From: Sanderia malayensis
Lineage: Eukaryota; Cnidaria; Scyphozoa; Semaeostomeae; Pelagiidae
DNA length: 64,000 bases
Assembly: GCA_013076295.1 (NCBI GenBank)
Contig: RQOL01000392.1
Coordinates: forward strand, 248,001-312,000
Reading direction: 5' to 3'
A program made the position numbers and the translations under genes. The notes beneath the pieces are model-generated. The model saw only the letters and a program-made list of their open reading frames with translations. It ran no database searches and had not been told where the DNA came from. This document shows, piece after piece, positions 15,321 to 58,625 of this stretch (positions within the stretch are counted from its first letter, which is position 1; each line of letters starts with the position of its first letter).

Positions 15321-15525
15321 CGTCGTTACTAAAAAGCGGAACAACCCAGAACAAGCCAGAACAAGCCAGCACAAGCCATAACAAGCCAGAACAACCCAGA
15401 ACAAGCCAAGAACAAGCCAAGAACAAGCGGAACAACCCAAGAACAAGCCAGGAACAGGTTGAACAACCCGAGAACAAACCAGAACAAGGAGACAGTTTAG
15501 ATTCTTATGTTATTCAGAGAGATTA
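15321..15525 (+). repeat. Left TIR of the inner MULE (minisatellite-bearing)
   Basis: 205 bp made mostly of AACAAGCC / AACAACCC minisatellite units, bounded by ACTAAAAAGCGG outside and GAGACAGTTTAGATTCTTAT inside. It is the inverted copy of 21538-21722. Confidence 0.9.
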
Positions 15526-21537: not shown

Positions 21538-21722
21538 TAATCTCTCTGAATAACATAAGAATCTAAACTGTCTCCTTGTTCTGGTTTGTTCTCGGGTTGT
21601 TCAACCTGTTCCTGGCTTGTTCTTGGGTTGTTCCGCTTGTTCTTGGCTTGTTCTTGGCTTGTTCTGGGTTGTTCTGGCTTGTTCTGGCTTGTTCTGGGTT
21701 GTTCCGCTTTTTAGTAACGACG
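21538..21722 (-). repeat. Right TIR of the inner MULE
   Basis: 185 bp, the inverted copy of 15321-15525. It is about 20 bp shorter because of fewer GGCTTGTTCT units. Confidence 0.9.
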
Positions 21723-36275: not shown

Positions 36276-36533
36276 ATGGTGATGATGGACTATGAAAAAT
36301 TGATCATGCTTTCAAGTGAACCAGAACCTGAGAAGGAAATCTCAGGCAAGCTTCCACCAACGAAAAAGAAGGTTATAAGTATAAGAAAGAAGAAAAAGAG
36401 TGTATCATCAAAGATGGGTGGAGATGAAAGGAAGGTTATAAAAACAACACCACATGATTTGAAATGGAGGAGGCGAAGAAAGAAACGATGTTCTAACGTT
36501 AAACTAATGCAGATGTTAATTGACTTAATATGA
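36276..36533 (+). CDS. Small very basic protein (85 aa)
   Basis: It has an acidic start (SSEPEPEKE), then PTKKKVISIRKKKKS and WRRRRKKRCSN, suggesting DNA binding or a nuclear signal. Its stop overlaps the integrase start (ATGA at 36530-36533), so the two are translationally adjacent. No family recognised. Confidence 0.5.
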   Translation: MVMMDYEKLIMLSSEPEPEKEISGKLPPTKKKVISIRKKKKSVSSKMGGDERKVIKTTPHDLKWRRRRKKRCSNVKLMQMLIDLI

Positions 36534-37518
36534 ATATTGGAAAGTTATATTCTGATTCTTCTGTGCCTGATTCTCTAGGGGGCTTAAATAAAACATACAG
36601 GGAATTTAAGAAGTTGATTCCTGATTTTAAAAGGAAAGATATCGAAGAATGGAACAAAACTAGTTAGGCATATTCATTACATAAACCTAGTAGGAGGAAT
36701 TTCAAACTTGAGAGAATAATTACGAATAATGTAGACTATTTGTGGGAATGCGATCTTGTTGATATGAGTTATTTGAAGAAGGAGAATGACAACGTTACAT
36801 TCCTATTAACTTGTATCGATACGCTCAGGAAGTATGCTTGGGTGAAACCTCTGAAGAGGAAAACATCAGGAGAAATTGTAAGAACCTTTCAAGATATCTT
36901 GCTTGAAAGAGGGCCACAAAAGGTGAGATGAGGTAAAGGGAGTGAATTCATGAATAAAGATTTTCAAGAATTGCTGAAGAAAGACAACATTGGGTTCTAC
37001 ACAGCTAACAATGAAGTAAAAGCAGCCATTGTAGAGAGGTTTAATAGGACGCTAAAAGGTCGCATGTATCGATACTTTACCGCAAGAAACACTCCCAGAT
37101 ACATCAATAATTTACAAGAGTTTGTTCATTCCTATAACAACCCCCACCATCGATCCATCGCTATGCGACCATCAGCTGTCAATAAAAGCAACGCCAATAT
37201 CGTTAGAAAGAAGTTGTTTGGAAAGCCGATGAGAAGGAGACAAGTCAACTTCAAAATTGGTGATTACGTTAGTTTGAGTCTGAAAAAGAGGTTGTTCAAG
37301 AAAGGTTATTTACAAAATTATACTGAAGAAATTAGATTACGAAATTAGCAAATTAGCAAATTAGCAAAGAAAAAAGATTAGCAAAGTTTTTAAAGAAAGG
37401 CTACCAAGAATGTATGAAGTTGAAGGGAAAAGGGAAAAACGTCTATTTAATAAGAGGGCGAGGCTATCTACCACAGTTTGATGAGTGGGTTGATGAAGCA
37501 GAATTGGAGGCGATATGA
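36530..37518 (+). pseudogene. Polinton integrase (retroviral type) with C-terminal chromodomain
   Basis: After an N-terminal region (YREFKKLIPDF) come WECDLVDM (first catalytic Asp), GKGSEFMN and VERFNRTLKGRMYRYFT (catalytic Glu). In GKGSEF the usual second Asp of DKGSEF is Gly. Then a beta-barrel-like part (FKIGDYVSLS). In another frame the C-terminus has VYLIRGRGYLPQFDEWVDEA, a chromodomain as in other Polinton integrases. In-frame stops: TAG at 36665-36667 and TGA at 36929-36931. A TTAGCAAA triplet repeat near 37345 accompanies the frameshift. It would insert the element DNA and give 6-bp duplications. Its TGA overlaps the next gene's ATG (37515). Confidence 0.88.
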
Positions 37519-41093: not shown

Positions 41094-41633
41094 ATGTATG
41101 CTCGACCAGTATACAAGTCAAACCTCAGATCATTATATGATTTCCCAATTTACAAGATCACCCCACCTCCATCTTATTATCCCAGACAGAGTGGTCGTGG
41201 CGTTGGTACAATCATAAAGAGAGCAGCACCTGTAATGAAAAGAATCTTGAAACTTATTGCACCAAAAATAGGAATAGCTGCTATGAGGGTAGCACTTCCA
41301 GTCATCAAAGAACATGGAGACAAAGCTCTCAAGCGCATAGCTGCTGGAGAGAATGTGAAGAAAGTAACAAAGGAGATGGAAAAATCCTTCCTTCGTGGTA
41401 TCAAGCGGACCGCAGCTGATGAGGTTGTGAATGTTATGAACAAGGATCTTTTGAATGATGTGAAGAAACAAGCTACGGAGGAGCTAGTTAATACCATGAA
41501 AGGAATATTCGTGCCAAATATAGCTATAAAAAGGGAGAAGGTCTCTCATAAGAGAAGACGCTCGCAGAGTAAGAATAATAATAAGAAGATTTTACTGAAG
41601 AAACTTTTGAAGAATAGTCTCGCAAGAAAATGA
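41094..41633 (+). CDS. Basic amphipathic virion protein (179 aa), pX/pVI-like by character
   Basis: The N-terminus MYARPVYK is followed by a Pro/Tyr-rich stretch. Then RGVGTIIKRAAPVMKRILKL opens an amphipathic helix region, and the long helical body ends with a Lys/Arg tail (KREKVSHKRRRSQSKNN). The GxxxxKRAAP context resembles adenovirus pX/core and pVI-like membrane-active proteins found beside capsid genes. It overlaps penton upstream and the capsid gene downstream (ATGA at 41630). Intact. Confidence 0.6.
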   Translation: MYARPVYKSNLRSLYDFPIYKITPPPSYYPRQSGRGVGTIIKRAAPVMKRILKLIAPKIGIAAMRVALPVIKEHGDKALKRIAAGENVKKVTKEMEKSFLRGIKRTAADEVVNVMNKDLLNDVKKQATEELVNTMKGIFVPNIAIKREKVSHKRRRSQSKNNNKKILLKKLLKNSLARK

Positions 41634-42936
41634 GCATCAAGACAAGCCACGTAGAATGTCCAAGTGAAAACGTGGACTTATTCTGTCAACCGGTCATTCA
41701 AAATGATATTCTCTACTTTAAGGACGTTGAATATTTTCCACGGACAGCTACTCTAAATGCTTCTAAACAGACAGTCGTTTTCGACATTGCAGCACAGTCG
41801 GATCGTATTATTGATTTGAATCATTCATACTTCATTTCAACTCTATCAATTAAAGAAGCAGATGGAACAGACATTGGAAAAAAAACGGGGGATTTCGTTG
41901 GAGTAATCAATATTATTGGTCAATCATTGTGGAAACAAATTGAGTTGCTGTTGAATGACACTCCTGTGACGGAGTCGAATGGTATGTATGCTTATCAATC
42001 ATACCTGGAAACAATTCTCACATATGATGAAACGAGAGCTAAGAATTACTTGAAGATGGCAAATTGGGTGAGTGATACTCCAGGGAAAGAAAGTGCTGGA
42101 TATCCCACTACTGATTCTACCAAAAACCCAGGATTAAATGAGAGGTCAGCGCCATTTGATAACAGTGCAACCGTTAAAGTGATGAAAAAGCCACACGTGA
42201 ATATCTGTAACCAACTCAAATACCTACTACCTGGAGTTCACCTTCAATTGAGATTGAGTCCAAACAGTAATGCTTTTTGTTTAATTATTTAAAATGGTGT
42301 TGCAGTGAACCTACATATAAAAGAAGTTAAACTGGTACTGCGACATATACACATCAAGGATGCCATCTTAAAGGGTATAGAAATGACTCTGATGAAATCT
42401 CCAGCCATGTATCCAGTCTGTCAACCACACATGGTGACTGATCTAATCCCTAGTAGTATAACTAGCTGGGTACAGGATGATTTTTTCAATGGGGAAGTTC
42501 CGAATAGGTTGTTCTTTGGAATCGTTGAAAATACTGCATGTAATGGAGTTCCTAAACAAAGTCCATTCAATTTCGAACATAATAATGTTTCTGCCGTACA
42601 AGTAACTGTTGGTAATCAAGAGATTACACCTCCTCTCAGCTTAAACTTGATGATGATTATTTGGATGCTTACAGTCGTTTGGTGTCTACACTCAACAATT
42701 CCCCTAGCTTGATTGATTACAACACATTCAAGCAAAGAGCCCCAATCTATGGTTTTGATTTGACTTCAAAGGGAAATTGTGAGAATGAGGAATATCTATT
42801 GAAACGAAAGGGCAAGCCTAGGACAAGCATAAACTTTGCAGATGCTGTGGACTCTCTAATAAACTTTGTCATCTTAGGAGAGTTTGATAGAGTAATTAAT
42901 ATTGATGCTCACAAAAACGTCATCCGTGATTGGTAA
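41630..42936 (+). pseudogene. Major capsid protein (double jelly-roll), two breaks
   Basis: The start region (ECPSENVDLFCQPVIQNDIL) is followed by IIGQSLWKQIELLLNDTPVT and YAYQSYLETILTYDE, the conserved capsid signature of Polinton major capsid proteins (W...V.V.LNG..V, YPY.AYLETLL). An in-frame TAA lies at 42290-42292. A frameshift near 42650 separates the final part (LDAYSRLVSTLNNSP ... INIDAHKNVIRDW). Total about 435 codons. Its TAA overlaps the protease ATG (TAATG, 42934-42938). Confidence 0.85.
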
Positions 42937-46784: not shown

Positions 46785-49262
46785 CTATGTAGTTATTACT
46801 GTTTCAATAAATAGTGTCCATATGGTAGTGTTCGTATCCCATCTTCTAGTATGTAGCTTATCATCGAAAGGTGCTAGAGATGTCTTTTTCTGCTTCACAC
46901 CATACGTCATTTGATTCTTTGAGATTATATTAGGTTGTTCATGAACAAAAACTTGATGCAACGATAAACATTCTTTGTAATCTTCATGGTTTATCTGCTT
47001 CTTCACCACAAGTTTCTTAACTCCCTTTGCTTTCCTTATAGAATTTCCTCCTGTTATTTTACATGAGTACATCTTTGGCAGCAAACCAATGAAGTCCTCC
47101 ATTGCTTTTTCCTCCAACTCATCCTTCATTTTTGCAATAACTTTCTTGTTGGTTGTAGAGTAATTAGGATGTTATTTAGGATAGTTGCTGAAATCAAAGA
47201 GATGGGAGCTTTCGTTCATGATTTGATGAACTTCTTCGAGTGGACGTTGTATTTCGTAGATGAAACTGTCAGTATCCATATAACAAAGTTTTGCATTCGG
47301 AAAGGCATGTTTCGCATAGTTGTAGTGATAATCATACATGTGCTCTTTACTGAGATCTAAAATACTGAAACCGAGGTAGATTGGTTTGTTTAGATACACT
47401 GTTTTCAATTTTCTCTGCACGATCAATGTATCTTCATTGACGTTAATCACTTCATAGAACTGAGGAAAATGAACCCATTTCGCTAATCTCTCACCTCTTG
47501 TACACACCTCAAACTTTCTATGATTTCGTACATTTTCCATCGTCTTCCCAAACACAGCATTGGTCATCAATTTGAAGAAATCCTTCTCAAAGTCATTTTG
47601 TGCATTACTTCGTTTGATGGTGTTGAAAACAATATACTTTTTCAACCAATTACTTTGATTGAATTCGACGACATTGTGTATTTTGGTAAGTTTTAAACCA
47701 AGATCTAAACACTTCTTGTCCAAGAGTGTCGGTATTAACTTTGGTGTGGTGGAAAAGGTCTTGTCATAAACTTCCTGATACATTTCTTTTTGCAGTGGTG
47801 ATAGCCATCCTTCTTTAACTTTAACTCTCCCAGGAGCAAAGGGTAGATTTGCATGCTTATCATGTAATTCATGAGGATTATTCTAGATCCACTCGAAAAA
47901 TGTAACCTTTTCCTGACGAATATCACATCTTTGAATCTCTTCAGAACTTAGCAGTCTGAAACCATCAATTGGGAGATCTTGTGACATTGCATGTCCATAT
48001 AGGTTGTTCGCATCCTTGTATATGATTGAGTGTTCTGTAGTCTCTACATGTCGCTTCATCACGATCGATACATCTCCTCGTATAGCTCTTTCCAGTAACA
48101 AATAAATATCCTTCTTCTCTTCAGTTAATAATTCCAGCTTGATACCTGTCATCTTCAACATTGCATCCCACGCAAATTCTGGTAGTGATATGTACCATGC
48201 AGGATCTAAACCATAATAATCGAGTCCAAGCTTGCGAAATGACTCAAAAACATCAGCGAGTAGGAGAACGTCAGTTACCAAGTAGAGCTCATGATAATCC
48301 TTGAAGGTGTTATATCTAAAGAATCGCCAAACGTTTTGAGCATGTTCATAATCATCATCACTGATCCCACAATCGTTCAGTTCATTATAGAATTCTTCTT
48401 GTGAAGGTAATGATGTTGCATGCATCTTTTCTGCACTATCTACCCAATCATATGGATAGACCCCTTTCTTTCTCAATAATCTGAATCCTTCATCAAAATC
48501 TACATTATTCCATGTTCTTCTTAGATAATCATTTACTAGCATTAAATCATCATCAGGTACGTTGTTTGCAAGTTCCGCCAAACCTCTACTTAAGAACGCA
48601 AAGGAACCAGTGTACCTTATTCCACCAGGAAGCCAATTTCTTTTAACATCATCATCATTATCATCATCAGAATGACTTGCTGATTCGATGGAAGCTGTTA
48701 CGATCTTTTCGGATGAGTTTGCAATGACTCGCACATTTCTCTGACCGAGATTTCCCATTATATGATGCAGGTCGTAGCCTTTCAAGTTAGTGAACACTGC
48801 TGGAATGAGGTGAGATTTTGCGATGATGTTCAAGTGGTTCCGATTGCAATACTCGCATTCTGCACCTCTATATTCGCCTGTGATGTGACAATGATCTCGA
48901 ACTTTCTTTCCAAATTTCTTCTTCCAACAGAAACAGTCTGTTGCTTCATCATCTTGACGTTGTTGTTCTTGTGTGAGTGCCTTCATTGGTATTGTTACTT
49001 TGAATATCTCTCGTATGTGTTCATTCAACTCATCCATCCTATTCATAAATTTCAACATGCAATCCTCACCAGTGTAAACTTCTGGTCCAATATTCAAGCG
49101 TCTATCAATCGAATTTACATTTACACCATAACAAATCGGCATATGTTTCTAATACTTGGAAGGATCATCCATCTTCTCAAGAATACATTCAAAATCAGCA
49201 TATATTACAAATGGGAGGAGCATTTGCTTCTTGAAGTTGCTAAAGTGTAACGATTGGTGTTT
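46785..49262 (-). pseudogene. Polinton DNA polymerase B, exonuclease-to-C-terminus part
   Basis: Reading on the minus strand: PFVIYADFECIL (exonuclease motif I), then an endonuclease-VII-like block KKVRDHCHITGEYRGAECEY with flanking cysteines. Next are FTNLKGYDLHHIM (exonuclease region), YKDANNLYGHAMSQDLP (polymerase D-x2-SLYP-equivalent motif) and CYMDTDSFIYE (D-T-D catalytic motif). The C-terminus has KAKGVKKLVVKK and LAPFDDKLHTRR. Three in-frame stops (49149-49151, 47883-47885, 47172-47174) but no frameshift in this part. Such enzymes replicate the linear element by protein priming. The N-terminal region is missing here and is found at 57605-58388. Opposite strand to the capsid genes. Confidence 0.88.
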
Positions 49263-49362
49263 AAAGCTTCTGTCGATAATTATTTAATCCTCGTAATGTA
49301 TCTGTTTCTCCATCGAATCCTGTTGTGTTGAACCTTGTGATATTGTCATTTCCGTGTTTTGT

Positions 49363-49416
49363 ATCTATATATATAAAACAGAACTGTTTGTATGTATGTT
49401 TGTGGCTATGTCCGCT
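49363..49416 (+). mobile_element. Left fragment of a Helitron-like element
   Basis: TCTATATATATAAAACAGAA followed by CTGTTTGTATGTATGTTTGT and GGCTATGTCCGCT looks like the leading end of many animal Helitrons. The continuation TATAACTTAAGAACCACT is found right of the palindrome at 56768. So the palindrome is inserted in this element. No Rep/helicase gene is present. The assignment rests on remembered end sequence. Confidence 0.45.
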
Positions 49417-49889
49417 AGTAGGAGAGGAAATAGGCGTCCTGGCCCACCTGGCCCACGCATGCGCAGTAGAATGTGTTAAAATCACGCATGCGCGAGAGTC
49501 TTCGAGAATTGAAAAGAGCATGAACAGTAAAAAAATAATCGAAAACGACAGGTTGTGGAAAGTTAGTTTAAAGTTGCAACACATCGCCAAAGCTGATAAA
49601 AAACCCATAAAAAGCTAAATAACTAAAAAACGGTTTTGTTTATGAAAAAGATTATTACACCAATAAAAAGAAAATCTCTTGGTTATATTGAATGAATTGT
49701 TTCATATTTTTCATGCACTTATAAGATGATAAGAATTTGTTAAATAAATCGCAAGAAAACACAAAAATATTGAGGAACTGGCAAATTCACGTTCTCGGCT
49801 CGAGATTGAATTCAAAAAACCAATCAGAAACTTTTGAATGCGACGTTCGAATGTACGCGTCAAATCTCTCTCATGAGAAATGAGAAATC

Positions 49890-49904
49890 AGAAACTTCTA
49901 GAAC
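49890..49904. promoter_or_regulatory. Heat-shock-like element in the palindrome arm
   Basis: AGAAA-CTTCT-AGAAC is three perfect alternating pentamers, mirrored at 56274-56288 in the right arm. It lies downstream of the C2H2 gene, towards the element end. Confidence 0.45.
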
Positions 49905-50158
49905 TTTTCCGAGGGGAAATCCCCTGACGTCACATTGAAAGATTTTTCTAGAAACAGAAAATCTCTGCAATCTGATTGGCTGATAGCCAAGATTTCGAGT
50001 CACTTTAAAACAAAACTTGAAATGGACATTATTCAAAACAAAATGTGCAAGCTGTTCAAGAAACTATTTTAACACGTTTCAAGAAGAAAGACGCCATGAA
50101 AAAGAGGCCATTTTCTGCATTAGCAAACAATAATATCTAAACTTTTTTATAAGCATTG

Positions 50159-50659
50159 TTATATCCTACTATATGGAAATGCTGGATTACTATTAAATAC
50201 AAGTTCATTCACCGCAGCATCCTCAGAATCACTGCCTTCCTCTTCTTCGTCATTCTTTGCTTGACGTATGATGAGATATTTTCTTTTCTCAATAGCATAA
50301 TCTAAGGCCTCTTGCATATCCATATCATCTTCCCTCTGTGCTTTTTGCATCGTTGCTATAACTGCAGTTACAACAGCATCATTTTCAAAACTTCTATTAT
50401 ATAAAAATCTACGTTTGAAAACTTGCAATATGTTTTCATCTTCATCCACTTCCTTACGCATAGAAGGCCATACATTCCCTAAAGGAAGATCCTCATCAGT
50501 GTTGACAGTTTCATCATTATCATGATCACTTTCAACTTCTATCTCATGATCTGAGTCAGACTCTTCACTGCTCTCCTCGTGCATCTCTTCTCCATGTCGT
50601 GTAACATTACTTTTATACTTGCAAGAAAATTCACATTGATCACATTTATACTGTCTCAT
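50159..50659 (-). CDS. C2H2 zinc-finger, acidic protein of the palindrome (left copy)
   Basis: 166 codons from the ATG at 50657-50659 (the frame is open a little upstream). An N-terminal C2H2 finger YKCDQCEFSCKYKSNVTRHG plus EEMH is followed by a long acidic Ser/Glu/Asp stretch. Then NVWPSMRKEVDEDENILQVF and MDMQEALDYAIEKRKYLI come, and an acidic tail ending PAFPYSRI. I recall similar acidic proteins with the KRKYLI-type end near the termini of animal Polintons; that link is a recollection. A nuclear DNA-binding role is likely. The satellite begins about 100 bp upstream. Confidence 0.75.
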   Translation of the reverse strand: MRQYKCDQCEFSCKYKSNVTRHGEEMHEESSEESDSDHEIEVESDHDNDETVNTDEDLPLGNVWPSMRKEVDEDENILQVFKRRFLYNRSFENDAVVTAVIATMQKAQREDDMDMQEALDYAIEKRKYLIIRQAKNDEEEEGSDSEDAAVNELVFNSNPAFPYSRI

Positions 50660-50759
50660 GGCTAGCTGTTTACTTATAATTACCAACTAACTCTTAAATC
50701 CCTGAATTCTAGAGTCTCAACTCGCTTAATTTTATAGATAAGTTCCTCCATTCAATATG

Positions 50760-52990
50760 ATACGGGAGAGGGACTGAAAGATATTTCCGAATAAAGAGAA
50801 CTTAATCCTTGGATAATGCTAACTAATCCTGATTAATGACTACTCCATTCTAGCTAATCATTCCTAGTCATTACCTTCTCAATACTTCATCCTCAATACA
50901 TCCTTGATTATCATTCCTAATCATTACCTGATCATTAGTTGATCCTTCACTGGTCCTTACTAATCCTTACCAATCATACCTATTCATTACTTGATCATCA
51001 GTAGATCCTTAACTGATCCTTGATAATCTTTACCGTCACTATTGATCATCAGTTGATCCTTAACTGATCCTTTCTAATCCTAACTAATCATTCCTAATCA
51101 TTACCTTATCATTACTTGATCCTTAACTGATCCTCACTAATCCTAACTAATCATCCCTAATCATTACCTTATCATTACTTGATCCTTAACTGATCCTCAC
51201 TAATCCTAACTAATCATCCCTAATCATTACCTTATCATTACTTGATCCTTAACTGATCCTCACTAATCCTAACTAATCATTCCTAATCATTACCTTATCA
51301 TTACTTGATCCTTAACTGATCCTCACTAATCCTAACTAATCATTCCTAATCATTACCTTATCATTACTTGATCCTTAACTGATCCTCGCTAATCCTAACT
51401 AATCATCCCTAATCATTACATTATCACTACTTGATCCTTAACTGATCCTCGCTAATCCTAACTAATCATTCCTAATCATTACCTTATCATTACTTGATCC
51501 TTAAATGATCCTCACTAGTCCTAACTAATCATCCCTAATCATTACCTTATCATTACTTGATCCTTAACTGATCCTTTCTAATCCTAACTAATCATTCCTA
51601 ATCATTACCTTATCATTACTTGATCCTGAACTGATCGTCACTAATTCTAACTAATCATTCCTAATCATTACCTTATCATTACTTAATCCTTAACTGATCC
51701 TCACTAATCCTAACTAATCATTCCTAATCATTACCTTATCATTACTTGATCCTTAAGTGATCCTCACTAATCCTAACTAATCATCCCTAATCATTACTTT
51801 ATCATTACTTGATCCTTAACTGATCCTCACTAATCAAAACTAATCATCCCTAATCATTACCTTATCATTACTTGATCCTTAACTGATCCTCACTAATCCT
51901 AACTAATCATTCCTAATCATTACCTTATCATTACTTGATCCTTAACTGATCCTCACTAATCCTAACTAATCATCCCTAATCATTACCTTATCATTACTTG
52001 ATCCTTAACTGATCCTTTCTAAACCTAACTAATCATTCCTAATCATTACCTTATCATTACTTAATCCCTAACTGATCCTTACTAATCCTAACTAATCATC
52101 CCTAATCAGTACCTTATTATTACTTGATCCTTAACTGATCCTCACTAATCCTAAATAATCATTCCTAATCATTACCTTATCATTACTTGATCCTTAACTG
52201 ATCCTCACTAATCCTAACTAATCATCCCTAATCATTACCTTATCATTACTTGATCCTTAACTGATCCTCACTAATCCTAACTAATCATCCCTAATCATTA
52301 CCTTATCATTACTTGATCCTTAACTGATCCTCACCAATCCTTACCAATCATACATAATCATTACCTGATCATCAGTAGATCTTTTACTGATCCTTGATAA
52401 TCCTAGCCAATCATACCTAATCATTAGCTGATCATGAGGTCATCCTTAACTGATCCTCAGTGATCCTTATAGTCATTCATAGTCATTACTGATCATCAGC
52501 TGATCCTTAGCTGATCCTCACCAATCCTTACCAATTATACATAATCATTACCTGATCATCAGTTGATCCTTAGCTGATCCTCATTAATCCTTACCAATCA
52601 TACTTAATCATTAGCAGATCATCAGGTGATCATTAACTGATCCTTGCTAGTCCTTATCAATCTTTCCTAATCATCATCTGATCATCTGTTGATCCTTACT
52701 AGTCCTTACCAATCATTCCTTATCACTACCTGATCCTTAGTTGTCCTTAACTAATCCTTACGAATCCTTACTAATCATTCTTAATCATAACCTCATCATT
52801 AGTTGATCCTTAACAGATCCTTCTAATCCTAACTATTCATTACTATTCATAGCTAGTCATTACATAATCATTAGTTGATCTTTAACTGATCCTGGCTTTA
52901 TCCATTCAACATTTATCCTTACTAATCCTGACTAATAATTTCTTGTCATAACCCAATCCTTATTAATCCTTGCCTAGATTTTATTAATCT
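50760..52990. repeat. 63-bp satellite array, left arm
   Basis: Core unit of 63 bp (CCTAACTAATCATCCCTAAT ... GATCCTCACTAAT) made of six 10-11-bp subunits with TAATC/TGATC at the same place. Central units from about 51060 to 52330 are near-identical. Towards both ends (50870-51050, 52330-52990) they diverge. No ORF. Confidence 0.92.
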
Positions 52991-52994
52991 TCAG

Positions 52995-53026
52995 TTGATC
53001 CCGAGTGAACACCCTCTACAGTACTG
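52995..53026. other. 32-bp unpaired centre of the palindrome
   Basis: The only part between the arms, ending GAACACCCTCTACAGTACTG. The inverted copies meet at CTTCAG (52989-52994) and CTGAAG (53027-53032). Confidence 0.8.
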
Positions 53027-53029
53027 CTG

Positions 53030-55330
53030 AAGATTAATAAAATCTATCAAGGATTAATAAGGATTGGGTTATGATAAGAAAATGTTAGTCAGGATTAGTA
53101 AGGATAAATGTTGAATGGATAAAGCCAGGATCAGTTAAAGATCAACTAATGATTATGTAATGACTAGCTATGATTAGTAATGAATAGTTAGGTTTAGAAG
53201 GATCTGCTAAGGATCACCTATTGATGAAGTTATGATTAAGAATGATTAGTAAGGATTCGTAAGGATTAGTTAAGCAACAACTAAGGATCAGGTAGTGATT
53301 AGGAATGATTGGTAAGGACTAGTAAGGATCAACAGATGATCAGATGATGATTAGGAAAGATTGATAAGGACTAGCAAGGATCAGTTAAGGATCAACTGAT
53401 GATCTGCTAATGATTAAGTATGATTGGTAAGGATTAATGAGGATCAGCTGAGGATCAACTGATGATCAGGTAATGATTGTGTATAATTGGTAAGGATTGG
53501 TGAGGATCAGCTAAGGATCAGCTGATGATCAGTAATGACTATGAATGACTATAAGGATCACTGAGGATCAGTTAAGGATGACCTCATGATCAGCTAATGA
53601 TTAGGTATGATTGGCTAGGATTATCAAGGATCAGTAAAAGATCTACTGATGATCAGGTAATGATTATGTATGATTGGTAAGGATTAGTGAGGATCAGTTA
53701 AGGATCAAGTAATGATAAGGTAATGATTAGGAATGATTAGTTAGGATTAGTGAGGATCAGTTAAGGATCAAGTAATGATATGGTAATGATTAGGGATGAT
53801 TACTTAGGATTAGTGAGGATCAGTTAAGGATCAAGTAATGATAAGGTAATGATTAGGAATGATTATTTAGGATTAGTGAGGATCAGTTAAGGATCAAATA
53901 ATGATAAGGTAATGATTAGGGATGATTAGTTAGGATTAGTGAGGATCAGTTAAGGATCAAGTAATGATAAGGTAATGATTAGGAATGATTAGTTAGGATT
54001 AGTGAGGATCAGTTCAGGATCAAGTAATGATAAGGTAATGATTAGGGATGATCAGTTAGGATTAGAAAGGATCAGTTAGGGATCATGTAATGATAAGGTA
54101 ATGATTAGGGATGATTAGTTAGGATTAGTGAGGATCAGTTAAGGATCAAGTAATGATATAATGATTAATGTATTAGGAATGGATAGTAATGATTAGTTAG
54201 GATTAGTGATAGTGAGGATCAGTTAAGGATCAAGTAATGATAAGGTAATGATTAGGATGATTAGTTAGGATTAGTGAGGATCAGTTAGGATCAAGTAATG
54301 ATAAGTAATGATTAGGAATGATTAGTTAGGATTAGTGAGGATCAGTTAAGGATCAAGTAATGATAAAGTAATGATTAGGGATGATTAGTTAGGATTAGTG
54401 AGGATCACTTAAGGATCAAGTAATGATAAGTAATGATTAGGAATGATTAGTTAGGATTAGTGAGGATCAGAATATAAGAAGATAAAAGTAAAATAGATCA
54501 AGTAATGATAAGTATGATTAGGATGATTAGTTAGATTAGTGAGGATCAGTTAAGGATCAAGTAATGATAAGGTAATGATTAGGAATGATTAGTTAGGATT
54601 AGTGAGGATCAGTTAAGGATAAGTAATGATAAGTAATGATTAGGAATGATTAGTTAGGATTAGTGAGGATCAGTTAAGGATCAGGTAATGATAAGGTAAT
54701 GATTAGGAATGATTAGTTAGGATTAGGGAGGATCAGTTAAGGATTAAGTAATGATAAGGTAATGATTAGGGATGATTAGTTAGGATTAGTAAGGATCAGT
54801 TAGGGATCAAGTAATGATAAGGTAATGATTAGGAATGATTAGTTAGGATTAGAAAGGATCAGTTAAGGATCAAGTAATGATAAGGTAATGATTAGGGATG
54901 ATTAGTTAGGACTAGTGAGGATCAGTTAAGGATCAAGTAATGATAAGGTAATGATTAGGGATGATTAGTTAGGATTAGTGAGGATCAGTTAAGGATCAAC
55001 TAATGATAAGGTAATGATTAGGAATGATTAGTTAGGATTTGTGAGGATCTCTTAAGGATCAAGTAATGATAAGGTAATAATTAGGGATGATTAGCTAGGA
55101 TTAGTGAGGATCAGTTAAGGATCAAGTAATGATCAGTAGTGACGGTAAAGATTATCAAGGATCAGTTAAGGATCTACTGATGATCAGGTAATGAATAGGT
55201 ATGATTGGTAAGGATTAGTAAGGATCAGTGAAGGATCAACTAATGATCAGGTAATGACTAGGAATGATAATCAAGGATGTATTGAGGATCAAGTATTGAG
55301 AAGGTAATGACTAGGAATGATTAGCTAGAA
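53030..55330. repeat. 63-bp satellite array, right arm
   Basis: Same satellite on the opposite strand (GGATTAGTGAGGATCAGTTA, AGGATCAAGTAATGATAAGG). Most 63-bp units are regular from about 53690 to 55130. Degenerate units flank them. Confidence 0.92.
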
Positions 55331-55518
55331 TGGAGTAGTCATTAATCAGGATTAGTTAGCATTATCCAAGGATTAAGTTCTCTTTATTCGGTAATATCTT
55401 TCAGTCCCTCTCCCGTATCATATTGAATGGAGGAACTTATCTTTAAAATCAAGCGAGTTGAGACTCTAGAATTCAGGGATGTAAGAGTTTGTTGGTAATT
55501 ATAAGTAAACAGCTAGCC

Positions 55519-56019
55519 ATGAGTCAGTATAAATGTGATCAATGTGAATTTTCTTACAAGTATAAAAGTAATGTTACACGACATGGAGAAGAGATGCACG
55601 AGGAGAGCAGTGAAGAGTCTGACTCAGAGGGTGAGATAGAAGTTGAAAGTGATCATGATAATGATGAAACTGTCAACACTGATGAGGATCTTCCTTTAGG
55701 GAATGTATGGCCTTCTATGCGTAAGGAAGTGGATGAAGATGAAAACATATTGCAAGTTTTCAAACGTAGATTTTTATATAATAGAAGTTTTGAAAATGAT
55801 GCTGTTGTAACTGCAGTTATAGCAACGATGCAAAAAGCACAGAGGGAAGATGATATGGATATGCAAGAGGCCTTAGATTATGCTATTGAGAAAAGAAAAT
55901 ATCTCATCATACGTCAAGCAAAGAATGACGAAGAAGAGGAAGCCAGTGATTCTGAGGATGCTGCTGTGAATGAACTTGTATTTAATAGTACTCCAGCATT
56001 TCCATATAGTAGGATATAA
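55519..56019 (+). CDS. C2H2 zinc-finger, acidic protein of the palindrome (right copy)
   Basis: 166 codons. It differs from the left copy at about seven residues (for example CEFSYKY for CEFSCKY, SDSEGE for SDSDHE, NSTPAF for NSNPAF). The finger cysteines/histidines and the KRKYLI segment are unchanged. Both copies are open, so selection, recent duplication or gene conversion keeps them intact. Transcribed away from the centre, towards the element end. Confidence 0.75.
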   Translation: MSQYKCDQCEFSYKYKSNVTRHGEEMHEESSEESDSEGEIEVESDHDNDETVNTDEDLPLGNVWPSMRKEVDEDENILQVFKRRFLYNRSFENDAVVTAVIATMQKAQREDDMDMQEALDYAIEKRKYLIIRQAKNDEEEEASDSEDAAVNELVFNSTPAFPYSRI

Positions 56020-56767
56020 CAATGCTTATAAAAAAGTTTAGATATTATTGTTTGCTAATGCAGAAAATGGCCTCTTTTTCATGGCGTCTTTCTTCTTGAA
56101 ACGTGTTAAAATAGTTTCTTGAACAGCTTGCACATTTTGTTTTGAATAATGTCCATTTCAAGTTTTGTTTTAAAGTGACTCGAAATCTTGGCAATCAGCC
56201 AATCAGATTGCAGAGATTTTCTGTTTCTAGAAAAATCTTTCAATGTGACGTCAGGGGATTTCCCCTCGTAAAAGTTCTAGAAGTTTCTGATTTCTCATTT
56301 CTCATGAGAGAGATTTGACGCGTACATTCGAACGTCGCATTCGAAAGTTTCTGATTGGTTCTTTGAATCCAATCTCGAGCCGAGAACGTGAATTTGCCAG
56401 TTCCTCAATATTTTTGTGTTTTCTTGCGATTTATTTAACAAATTCTTATCATCTTATAAGTGCATGAAAAATATGAAACAATTCATTCAATATAACCAAG
56501 AGATTTTCTTTTTATTGGTGTAATAATCTTTTTCATAAACAAAACCGTTTTTTAGTTATTAAGCTTTTTATGGGTTTTTTATCAGCTTTGGCGATGTGTT
56601 GCAACTTTAAACTAACTTTCCACAACCTGTCGTTTTCGATTATTTTTTTACTGTTCATGCTCTTTTCAATTCTCGAAGACTCTCGCGCATGCGTGATTTT
56701 AACACATTCTACTGCGTATGCGTGTGCCAGGTGGGCCAGGACGCCTATTTCCTCTCCTACTTCCGCT

Positions 56768-57604: not shown

Positions 57605-58388
57605 CTAAACTTCATCATCTTCATAATAAAAAATGTTGATGGATACATTGTTGTTATCCTCGAATTTTTTTATTAAGTTGGAATTTGTGGGATTCACTGG
57701 AAATTTCAAACCATCCATATTCAATCGACTTTGATCATACTTTGTTGTTCTATCATAATCCTTACCTACTGGGTACAAACCAGACAAGACAACCCAGCGA
57801 AACACTTGTCATCTCTATTTTGTACGTTAATGATTGCTTTCTTCGCACTCAAGAGTTTTGGTGTTGGTATGTATGATCCGCCTTTAATTGGTTTATAATT
57901 GAAGAAGTGATTCTTATAATTGAACACTCTTTCCAATGTCCATCCGCTACCGCTTTCTCTATATTCACTTATATCTTCATAGATTTTATCAATAGCTTCT
58001 GTGACTTGATCTCTAATATCTTCAATGTTGGTAATTCTTAATTGAGATAGGATTTTCGATCTGAACACTGGAGGTGGATCAGTTTCAACATCACCAATTA
58101 TTTTCTTGAAAACAATCTCTGTGCTAAGGTAATACTTTATTCCCTGATCGTGTTCTTCTAACTCATTATAGATTTGTCCAGCTATTTCACGTCTCGCTTG
58201 ATCTAGCGACTGTTCTTCGTTGATGAAAACTGGATAAGCTTCATCCTTCTTCTTCTTCCTTCCAGCACCAGATAAGGTATTTCTTTGATCATCATGTGCT
58301 GTGTGCTTGTGATGTTCTAAATTTAAATGCCTTGTAAACTCCTTTGAACATTCTGAACATTTAAATTTTTTTCTTTTTAGGCTCATAA
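57605..58388 (-). pseudogene. Polinton DNA polymerase B, N-terminal region
   Basis: On the minus strand: a C2H2 finger (FKCSECSKEFTRHLNLEHH), Lys-rich linker, YNELEEHDQGIKYYL, then GGSYIPTPKLLSAKKAIINV and QNRDDKCFA, a conserved block upstream of the polymerase in these elements. A frame change near 57790 leads to WVVLSGLYPVGKDYDRTTKY and to the stop at 57605. Together with 46785-49262 it would supply most of one polymerase, separated by the palindrome and a missing segment of perhaps 60-80 residues. Confidence 0.75.
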
Positions 58389-58389
58389 T

Positions 58390-58625
58390 CTGAATTAGAT
58401 CGGAAGAGGCCGTTAAGATCTTCTCTGATGAGTTTGCAATGATCCGTACATTCCTTCGGCCGAGATTTGACATTATATGGTGCATGTCATATCCTTCCAA
58501 TTTGTGAAAAGCTGCGAGAATGAGGTTGGTATTTGCGATGATATTCAAATTGTTTAGATTGCAATACTCACATGCAGCACCTCTATATTCTCCTGTGATG
58601 TGATAATGATCTCGAACCTTTTTTC
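58390..58625 (-). pseudogene. Permuted internal PolB piece
   Basis: HITGEYRGAACEYCNLNN and FHKLEGYDMHHIMSNLGRRN match the endonuclease-VII-like/exonuclease part of PolB, which belongs after, not before, the N-terminal region that follows at 58388. The order is therefore permuted, as expected if two copies in tandem lost the sequence between them. It ends at a C-tract (58627-58640) next to a gypsy fragment. Confidence 0.7.

Follow-up and report, generated by a model that had tools for sequence, protein, structure and literature searches.

How does an element persist in a genome when it has the ends of a Polinton and none of its core genes? The question is raised by a palindrome of 7,345 bp at positions 49417-56761 of a 64,000-nucleotide stretch from the scyphozoan Sanderia malayensis (contig RQOL01000392.1, positions 248,001 to 312,000, or C323:248001-312000 in our designation); this whole stretch is called the window below. 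Polintons are regarded as viruses with a second life as transposons, and to our knowledge parasites of Polintons have been little explored. We consider it probable that the palindrome is a fold-back satellite of Polintons that carries a gene and is not autonomous. The genome searched comprised 184.0 Mb in 918 contigs, and copy counts for the family are lower bounds.

The element begins with AG and ends with CT; its first bases are AGTAGGAGAGG and its last bases are their reverse complement. Two arms (49417-52994, 3,578 bp, and 53026-56761, 3,736 bp) lie on either side of a 31-nt centre. Read inwards from its outer edge, each arm is made up of a Polinton-type end (about 487 bp), then a C2H2 gene, then roughly 2 kb of satellite with a 63-bp unit (Table 1). 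The initial annotation had recognised the AG...CT termini, the exact TCCGCT duplication, the near-perfect palindrome with one C2H2 gene per arm and the satellite in each arm, all of which stand as described; the centre, given there as 32 bp, is 31 nt long. Outside the satellite the window arms are 98-99% alike, with a divergence of 1.4% over the outer 1,300 bp. Inside it they differ by insertions and deletions, and identity in the whole-arm alignment is 92.7%. Single-base deletions are clustered, by eye, at about 54140-54640 in the right satellite; this run looks like weak local consensus quality, so sequencing error may account for part of the difference between the arms there.

To which class does such an element belong? 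The inverted AG...CT termini and the 6-bp duplication are those of a Polinton. An autonomous Polinton has core genes (pPolB, integrase, ATPase, protease and capsid) between its terminal inverted repeats (TIRs), and no such open reading frame (ORF) lies inside this element: the ORF listing holds no frame of at least 100 aa wholly within it beyond the two C2H2 ORFs (a 115-aa frame at 49261-49608 on the minus strand crosses the left edge), and genome-wide searches for integrase and capsid gave no match there. Inverted repeats that fill most of the element and contain tandem repeats place it among fold-back elements. Miniature inverted-repeat transposable elements are short and non-coding, unlike the present elements of 4-8 kb, 12 of 14 of which have an ORF in each arm.

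Is the palindrome a genuine insertion? When its flanks were joined with one TCCGCT, 46 matches were obtained (the best 40 of 116 candidates scored). Forty places match across the flank junction uninterrupted, at 87-98% identity, and the best of them (L112) has one TCCGCT. Because of these uninterrupted sites of the host repeat and the exact 6-bp duplications, the window element is evidently a real insertion into a copy of another dispersed repeat.

The palindrome is also not alone. With up to two mismatches allowed, its 20-base end is found 71 times in 184 Mb and the reversed control not at all, which excludes chance occurrence of the ends; at up to three mismatches the counts are 143 and 18. 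Fourteen elements were read whole, namely the window element and 13 other close plus/minus end pairs. Eleven are flanked by exact 6-bp duplications, two by duplications matching at five of six positions, and one (L009) by inverted flanks; the gene is missing from one arm in two (L009 and L020). A further 20 pairs were picked by their C2H2 genes, with 541 bases fetched for end recovery, and 12 of these have exact duplications; the others include two copies of one duplicated locus that match at four of six positions, and six with one or both ends unrecovered. Copies consisting of TIRs only and carrying their own 6-bp duplications, which the initial annotation had named as a check, are thus common: 23 of the 34 elements examined have exact duplications, with 22 different hexamers among them.

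A genome search with the C2H2 gene gave 143 matches, which resolve into 117 copies on 45 contigs. Near full-length copies in a single piece number 79, of which 72 are free of stops. Thirty-eight neighbouring pairs of genes less than 9 kb apart are divergent, as in the window, while two neighbours are convergent and seven lie on the same strand. The absence of core genes, as claimed in the initial annotation, extends to the family as far as listed integrase and capsid matches go: none of 83 such matches on pair-bearing contigs falls inside any of 39 gene pairs (C788, described below, included), polymerase, ATPase and protease not having been searched genome-wide. The central loop occurs 32 times by exact pattern, each time within 3.1 kb of a C2H2 copy. 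It is recognisable in all 11 elements compared, in 10 by the strict motif; L020 has no such central loop. For a 39-base piece of the satellite, the genome contains 1,339 matches at up to three mismatches (reversed control, 0). The gene, the satellite and the loop are therefore a separate family of common descent. With its 117 gene copies and 32 exact loops, this family rules out a one-off wreck of a Polinton.

Other loci of the family are less simple. L019 (C323:237138-242689), a family palindrome with a five-of-six duplication, lies about 5 kb before the window start. The locus C432:107697-127932 (L029, L030 and L031) consists of a head-to-tail series of four units, each about 4.88 kb long, together with an inverted end. 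One junction between units was read (L030), and the host flank of the left outer end recurs there; ACCCTT is common to the two outermost flanks. This array appears to be a tandem amplification of an inserted palindrome. The one-armed L009 (C496:11772-16339) has as its right end a 215-bp inverted copy of its left end, and about 100 bp of host flank are also inverted with a few differences, so that it is either a rearrangement or an assembly fold-back. Finally, C788:98651-113072, with 12 kb between its genes, was considered as a complete form with long TIRs and rejected; it is a family palindrome with an intact TACACA duplication and, within one satellite arm, an insert of other sequence with unrelated ORFs.

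Which Polintons could serve such a family? Three core-bearing copies were read at both ends, and a fourth, on C317, was partly read. The copy at C878:23714-40877 is 17.2 kb long and has an exact 6-bp duplication, AGCACA, and inverted repeats of 597 bp (97%). That at C303:2933176-2947131 has the duplication CATGTG and inverted repeats of only about 0.13 kb (82%), and that at C569:6536017-6554635 has no matching 6-bp duplication and inverted repeats of about 0.6 kb (91%). Core proteins of the four copies match rve plus Chromo, the poxvirus A32-type ATPase and Endonuclease_7; an adenovirus protease match is below the cut-off, and some ORFs of the core-bearing copies are broken. The ORF labelled capsid has no match in Pfam or the PDB, and the capsid and polymerase labels of the helper ORFs are what we presume from general Polinton anatomy, apart from any profile match; a related ORF in the window matches DNA_pol_B_2. 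Genome-wide, the best candidates include at least 139 integrase and at least 123 capsid matches.

The likeness between palindrome and Polintons is confined to the ends. Compared with seven Polinton ends, the window arm matches six at 91-95% over about 487 bp and one at 79% over 83 bp. Beyond about 491 bp, the arm has no match in the seven loci of the four Polinton copies (one partly read). Among the 827 ORFs of those loci and the window, the C2H2 gene has no relative but itself, and neither gene nor satellite was found in any of the three core-bearing copies with both ends read. Complete elements with these TIRs, which the initial annotation had envisaged, thus exist as far as the outer 487 bp or so are concerned, but none of those read contains the gene or the satellite. 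Together with the one shared loop, this indicates that the palindrome is one old, separately propagating lineage.

Have the ends stayed with their lineages? A tree was built of 49 ends, 22 from palindromes and 27 from Polintons (labelled by nearby core matches and the absence of the C2H2 gene), after exclusion of 6 of 28 palindrome ends that were truncated or divergent. A single clade of palindrome ends is rejected (approximately unbiased test, p-AU 6e-6), and four Polinton ends cluster with those of the palindromes L015 and L018; a distant type is represented in the tree by three further ends from Polintons. Since the ends interleave, the simplest reading would be that they have been exchanged between Polintons and palindromes.

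Table 1. Features of the palindromic element (window positions)
Feature	Position	Strand	Evidence or remark
Left 6-bp target-site duplication, TCCGCT	49411..49416		TCCGCT present once at L112, an uninterrupted paralogous site
Left Polinton-type terminal repeat, 487 bp	49417..49903	+	94.5% and 93.4% identity to the two ends of C878:23714-40877
C2H2/acidic protein gene, left arm, outward, 166 aa from an internal ATG	50162..50659	-	ORF listing, genome search
63-bp satellite, left arm, 31.2 copies	50910..52850		tandem-repeat analysis
Asymmetric central loop, 31 nt, kept across the family	52995..53025		arms end in AATCTTCAG and GCTGAAGATT beside the loop
63-bp satellite, right arm, 33.6 copies	53170..55291		tandem-repeat analysis
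C2H2/acidic protein gene, right arm, outward	55519..56016	+	ORF listing, Pfam match
Right Polinton-type terminal repeat	56275..56761	-	mirror of the left repeat
Right 6-bp target-site duplication, TCCGCT	56762..56767		exact copy of the left

If the palindrome is old, why are its arms still so alike? The 901-bp gene region was compared in 12 elements. Among variants private to one element, 28 are present in both of its arms (in 7 of the 12 elements) and 42 are confined to one arm. Such sharing of private variants would hardly ever arise in arms that evolve independently; the arms have thus been copied from each other. Across the 330 bp on each side of the loop in 10 elements, the left and right arms are told apart by a single fixed difference, which lies at the loop edge. 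L010 and L015 show no difference between their arms in the outer 1,300 bp. Arm identity in that part is at least 97.8% in 9 of 10 elements and 93.2% in L016, compared with a mean of 95.7% between different elements. In L015 the entire 6.7 kb, including the satellite, is 99.6% self-complementary.

The timing of this copying can be approached through the duplications. Most one-arm variants are found in the two elements with five-of-six duplications (L019, 15; L011, 10). The ten elements with exact duplications have 0-7, and five of them have no such variant or are identical throughout this region; over whole arms, some elements with exact duplications are only 91-93% alike, mostly owing to the satellite. 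The concentration of one-arm variants in elements with imperfect duplications suggests that the arms are alike when inserted and then drift apart.

How might such an element move and replicate? The outer 490 bp or so are homologous to Polinton ends and the duplication has the size made by Polintons, and we strongly infer from this that a Polinton integrase inserts the element in trans. This enzyme (rve plus chromodomain) would act on the ends and produce the 6-bp duplication, and the protein-primed polymerase of the helper probably acts on the element in trans as well. The palindromic form is inherited, with one arm copied onto the other, on our reading during the element's cycle. Our hypothesis, drawn by analogy, is that replication passes through a hairpin: protein-primed strand displacement would free a single strand, this strand would fold at full length around the 31-nt loop, and the folded hairpin would be restored to a palindromic duplex. 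The initial annotation had also suggested hairpin formation, which is in keeping with the copying between arms. The family may go back to one end of a Polinton in which the C2H2 gene was an accessory gene; gene searches of this genome found no Polinton carrying it. More tentatively, and with our judgement leaning somewhat against it, the family might be a satellite virus of a Polinton virus, palindromic and with a dedicated gene, which would replicate through a hairpin by means of the helper polymerase, use the helper integrase and swap ends with its helper.

Of the two C2H2 gene copies, the right one matches zf-H2C2_5 with an E-value of 4.7e-5 and 23.3 bits, under the curated Pfam cut-off of 27 bits. 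Public protein sets contain relatives at 97, 86, 83 and 74% identity and four more distant ones at 33-39%. Three of the distant relatives were aligned, and the four zinc ligands and an EALDYAI-KR--LI motif are kept in them, which suggests constraint on the protein over long times. A genome search with one distant relative (P0019, 37% identical to the window protein) gave 130 matches; by-eye comparison showed these to be the C2H2 family itself, except for two weak places (E 0.01 and 0.49). Viral contigs yielded no relatives with the gene, the capsid or the distant relative as queries; prokaryote genomes yielded none, PHROGs gave no match to the protein, and among solved structures there was nothing but zinc-finger chains at E 0.2 or worse. 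The predicted structure (mean pLDDT 48) is too poor for a fold search.

What could the protein bind? The 63-bp satellite unit contains six ATC triplets at spacings of 10, 11, 11, 11, 10 and 10, and their mean, 10.5, would correspond to the helical repeat of DNA. When the array is compared with itself, matching is elevated for shifts of 10 and 11 (0.465 against 0.306 expected) and not for 31-32, which indicates that the sub-units are only partly alike. The protein may bind this phased satellite or the ends. We conjecture that it is a DNA-binding factor that either aids use of the helper or marks the element's own satellite.

A number of observations weigh against the explanation offered here. 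Eleven of the 34 elements examined have no exact duplication, and 41 of the 117 gene copies lie outside any divergent pair of less than 9 kb. On the helper side, the polymerase piece matches only in its Endonuclease_7 part and has no match to a polymerase profile. The tree of ends was built on short, recombining sequence, and its bootstrap support is unsettled. In the window element, no private variant is shared by the two arms and seven stand in one arm, and whole-arm identity, which ranges from about 89 to 99.9%, does not alone sort elements by age; arm copying could also be gene conversion inside chromosomes. Lastly, there is no significant purifying selection on the C2H2 gene within the genome. 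Singletons are 73 nonsynonymous to 22 synonymous, variants in at least 3 of 34 elements are 14 to 7, and the neutral ratio is 3.67:1; dN/dS of 0.50-0.64 by dS bin is inseparable from neutrality in the variant test. In four pairs both gene copies have stops. The protein thus seems not to be needed in cis, and the lack of detectable selection and the pairs with two stopped copies fit a protein that acts in trans or is needed only occasionally.

Could the arms be kept alike by gene conversion in the chromosome, the element moving as an ordinary DNA transposon and never forming a hairpin? Long palindromes can undergo gene conversion, the copying seen between arms is compatible with any place of copying, and the exact-duplication elements include some whose whole arms are only 91-93% alike. 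However, one-arm variants are most numerous in the two elements with imperfect duplications and few in those with exact ones. We regard this as a serious rival and still as unlikely. The initial annotation had proposed another origin, the loss of a Polinton core by recombination at the inner borders of the TIRs, and on this account each palindrome would be the recent wreck of a complete Polinton with long TIRs. The ends and the duplication size would be explained, but in the core-bearing copies read the inverted repeats measure about 0.6 kb (two of three) or about 0.13 kb, and gene and satellite are lacking. Recurrent, independent loss would not yield one loop common to the elements, and no listed integrase or capsid match lies inside any gene pair; this origin is very unlikely and the proposal is not supported.

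Two further accounts can be given of the palindromic architecture. Read-through of the element would produce a long hairpin RNA that includes 487 bp of Polinton TIR, and such double-stranded RNA might direct small-RNA silencing of Polintons by the host. There is a precedent in maize, where Mu killer, an inverted Mu derivative, acts as a silencer; the dozens of copies with duplications of their own, in contrast, look selfish, and we rate a host-side silencer as extremely improbable. An inverted read or a collapsed repeat could also create a palindrome during assembly, as the inverted flanks of L009 and the poorly polished appearance of the right satellite in the window might suggest. The probability of such an artefact is close to negligible given distinct flanks, exact duplications, an empty paralogous site, diverged arms and the 23 exact-duplication elements at different places. 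The fold-back satellite of Polintons is thus the explanation that we prefer.

Does the window contain other Polinton-related DNA? Segments 36530-37336 and 41630-42631 resemble the integrase (73% identity) and capsid (72%) of the helper family, contain stops, and are remnants of an older, different Polinton. Two ORFs that flank the palindrome (47883-49142 and, on the minus strand, 57766-58548) resemble pieces of a Polinton DNA polymerase; the left one matches DNA_pol_B_2, and the right one has no Pfam match and was judged by eye. Elsewhere in the window, two minisatellites with 10-base units (15339-15488 and 21575-21704) lie about 6 kb apart in opposite orientation and may represent the arms of a further element whose inverted ends contain repeats. 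ORFs that resemble those of retroelements also occur in the window and, by eye, make an animal host likely.

How does the family compare with known systems? Hairpin derivatives are known in which a palindrome or hairpin arises from one end of a linear protein-primed genome, as in cytoplasmic yeast plasmids, and Kikuchi reportedly described in 1985 hairpin plasmids derived from protein-primed linear plasmids. These derivatives are a precedent for the hairpin step, whereas the present element is a chromosomally integrated family. Adenovirus and other helper-dependent viruses give rise to defective inverted-duplication genomes, which resemble the element in sharing the ends of the helper, lacking its genes and depending on it; the element differs from them in having persisted as a lineage for long and in carrying its own gene. 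Fold-back elements include Foldback and the sea-urchin TU elements. Another, Galileo, is placed in the P-element superfamily in the account of PMC3573991, where copies made up of long TIRs only are said to have prompted a Foldback-like label, the longest TIRs to occur in non-autonomous copies, and TIR-only copies to be numerous, some with internal tandem repeats. By this description the likeness lies in arms that are nearly the whole element and contain tandem repeats; unlike Galileo, the present family has Polinton-type ends and 6-bp duplications and a gene in each arm.

Polintons themselves offer a further comparison. According to PMC8097293, intact vertebrate Mavericks are flanked by 6-bp duplications and show AGT/AG end motifs, and their TIRs measure 46-1,447 bp; most carry accessory regions at both flanks of the core, and the repetition of their end motifs is said to be of use for jumping back during protein-primed replication. 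The present family has the 5'-AG ends, the 6-bp duplications and the homologous terminal 487 bp or so of a Polinton/Maverick, and differs from it in that core genes are absent, TIR-like arms fill the element, and the C2H2 gene, satellite and loop are its own. No described case of a palindromic, miniature or non-autonomous Polinton was found in the literature searched; Repbase and Dfam lay outside this search, and an entry there is possible.

What would this mean for Polintons? Gene-bearing palindromes that share Polinton ends would be a parasite of Polintons. If the hairpin idea is true, each round through the hairpin would be recorded in the chromosomes as a near-perfect palindrome; because the arms are copied anew, the idea can be tested on genome sequence and on extrachromosomal DNA. 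The family would also be a natural record of protein-primed genome replication and recombination.

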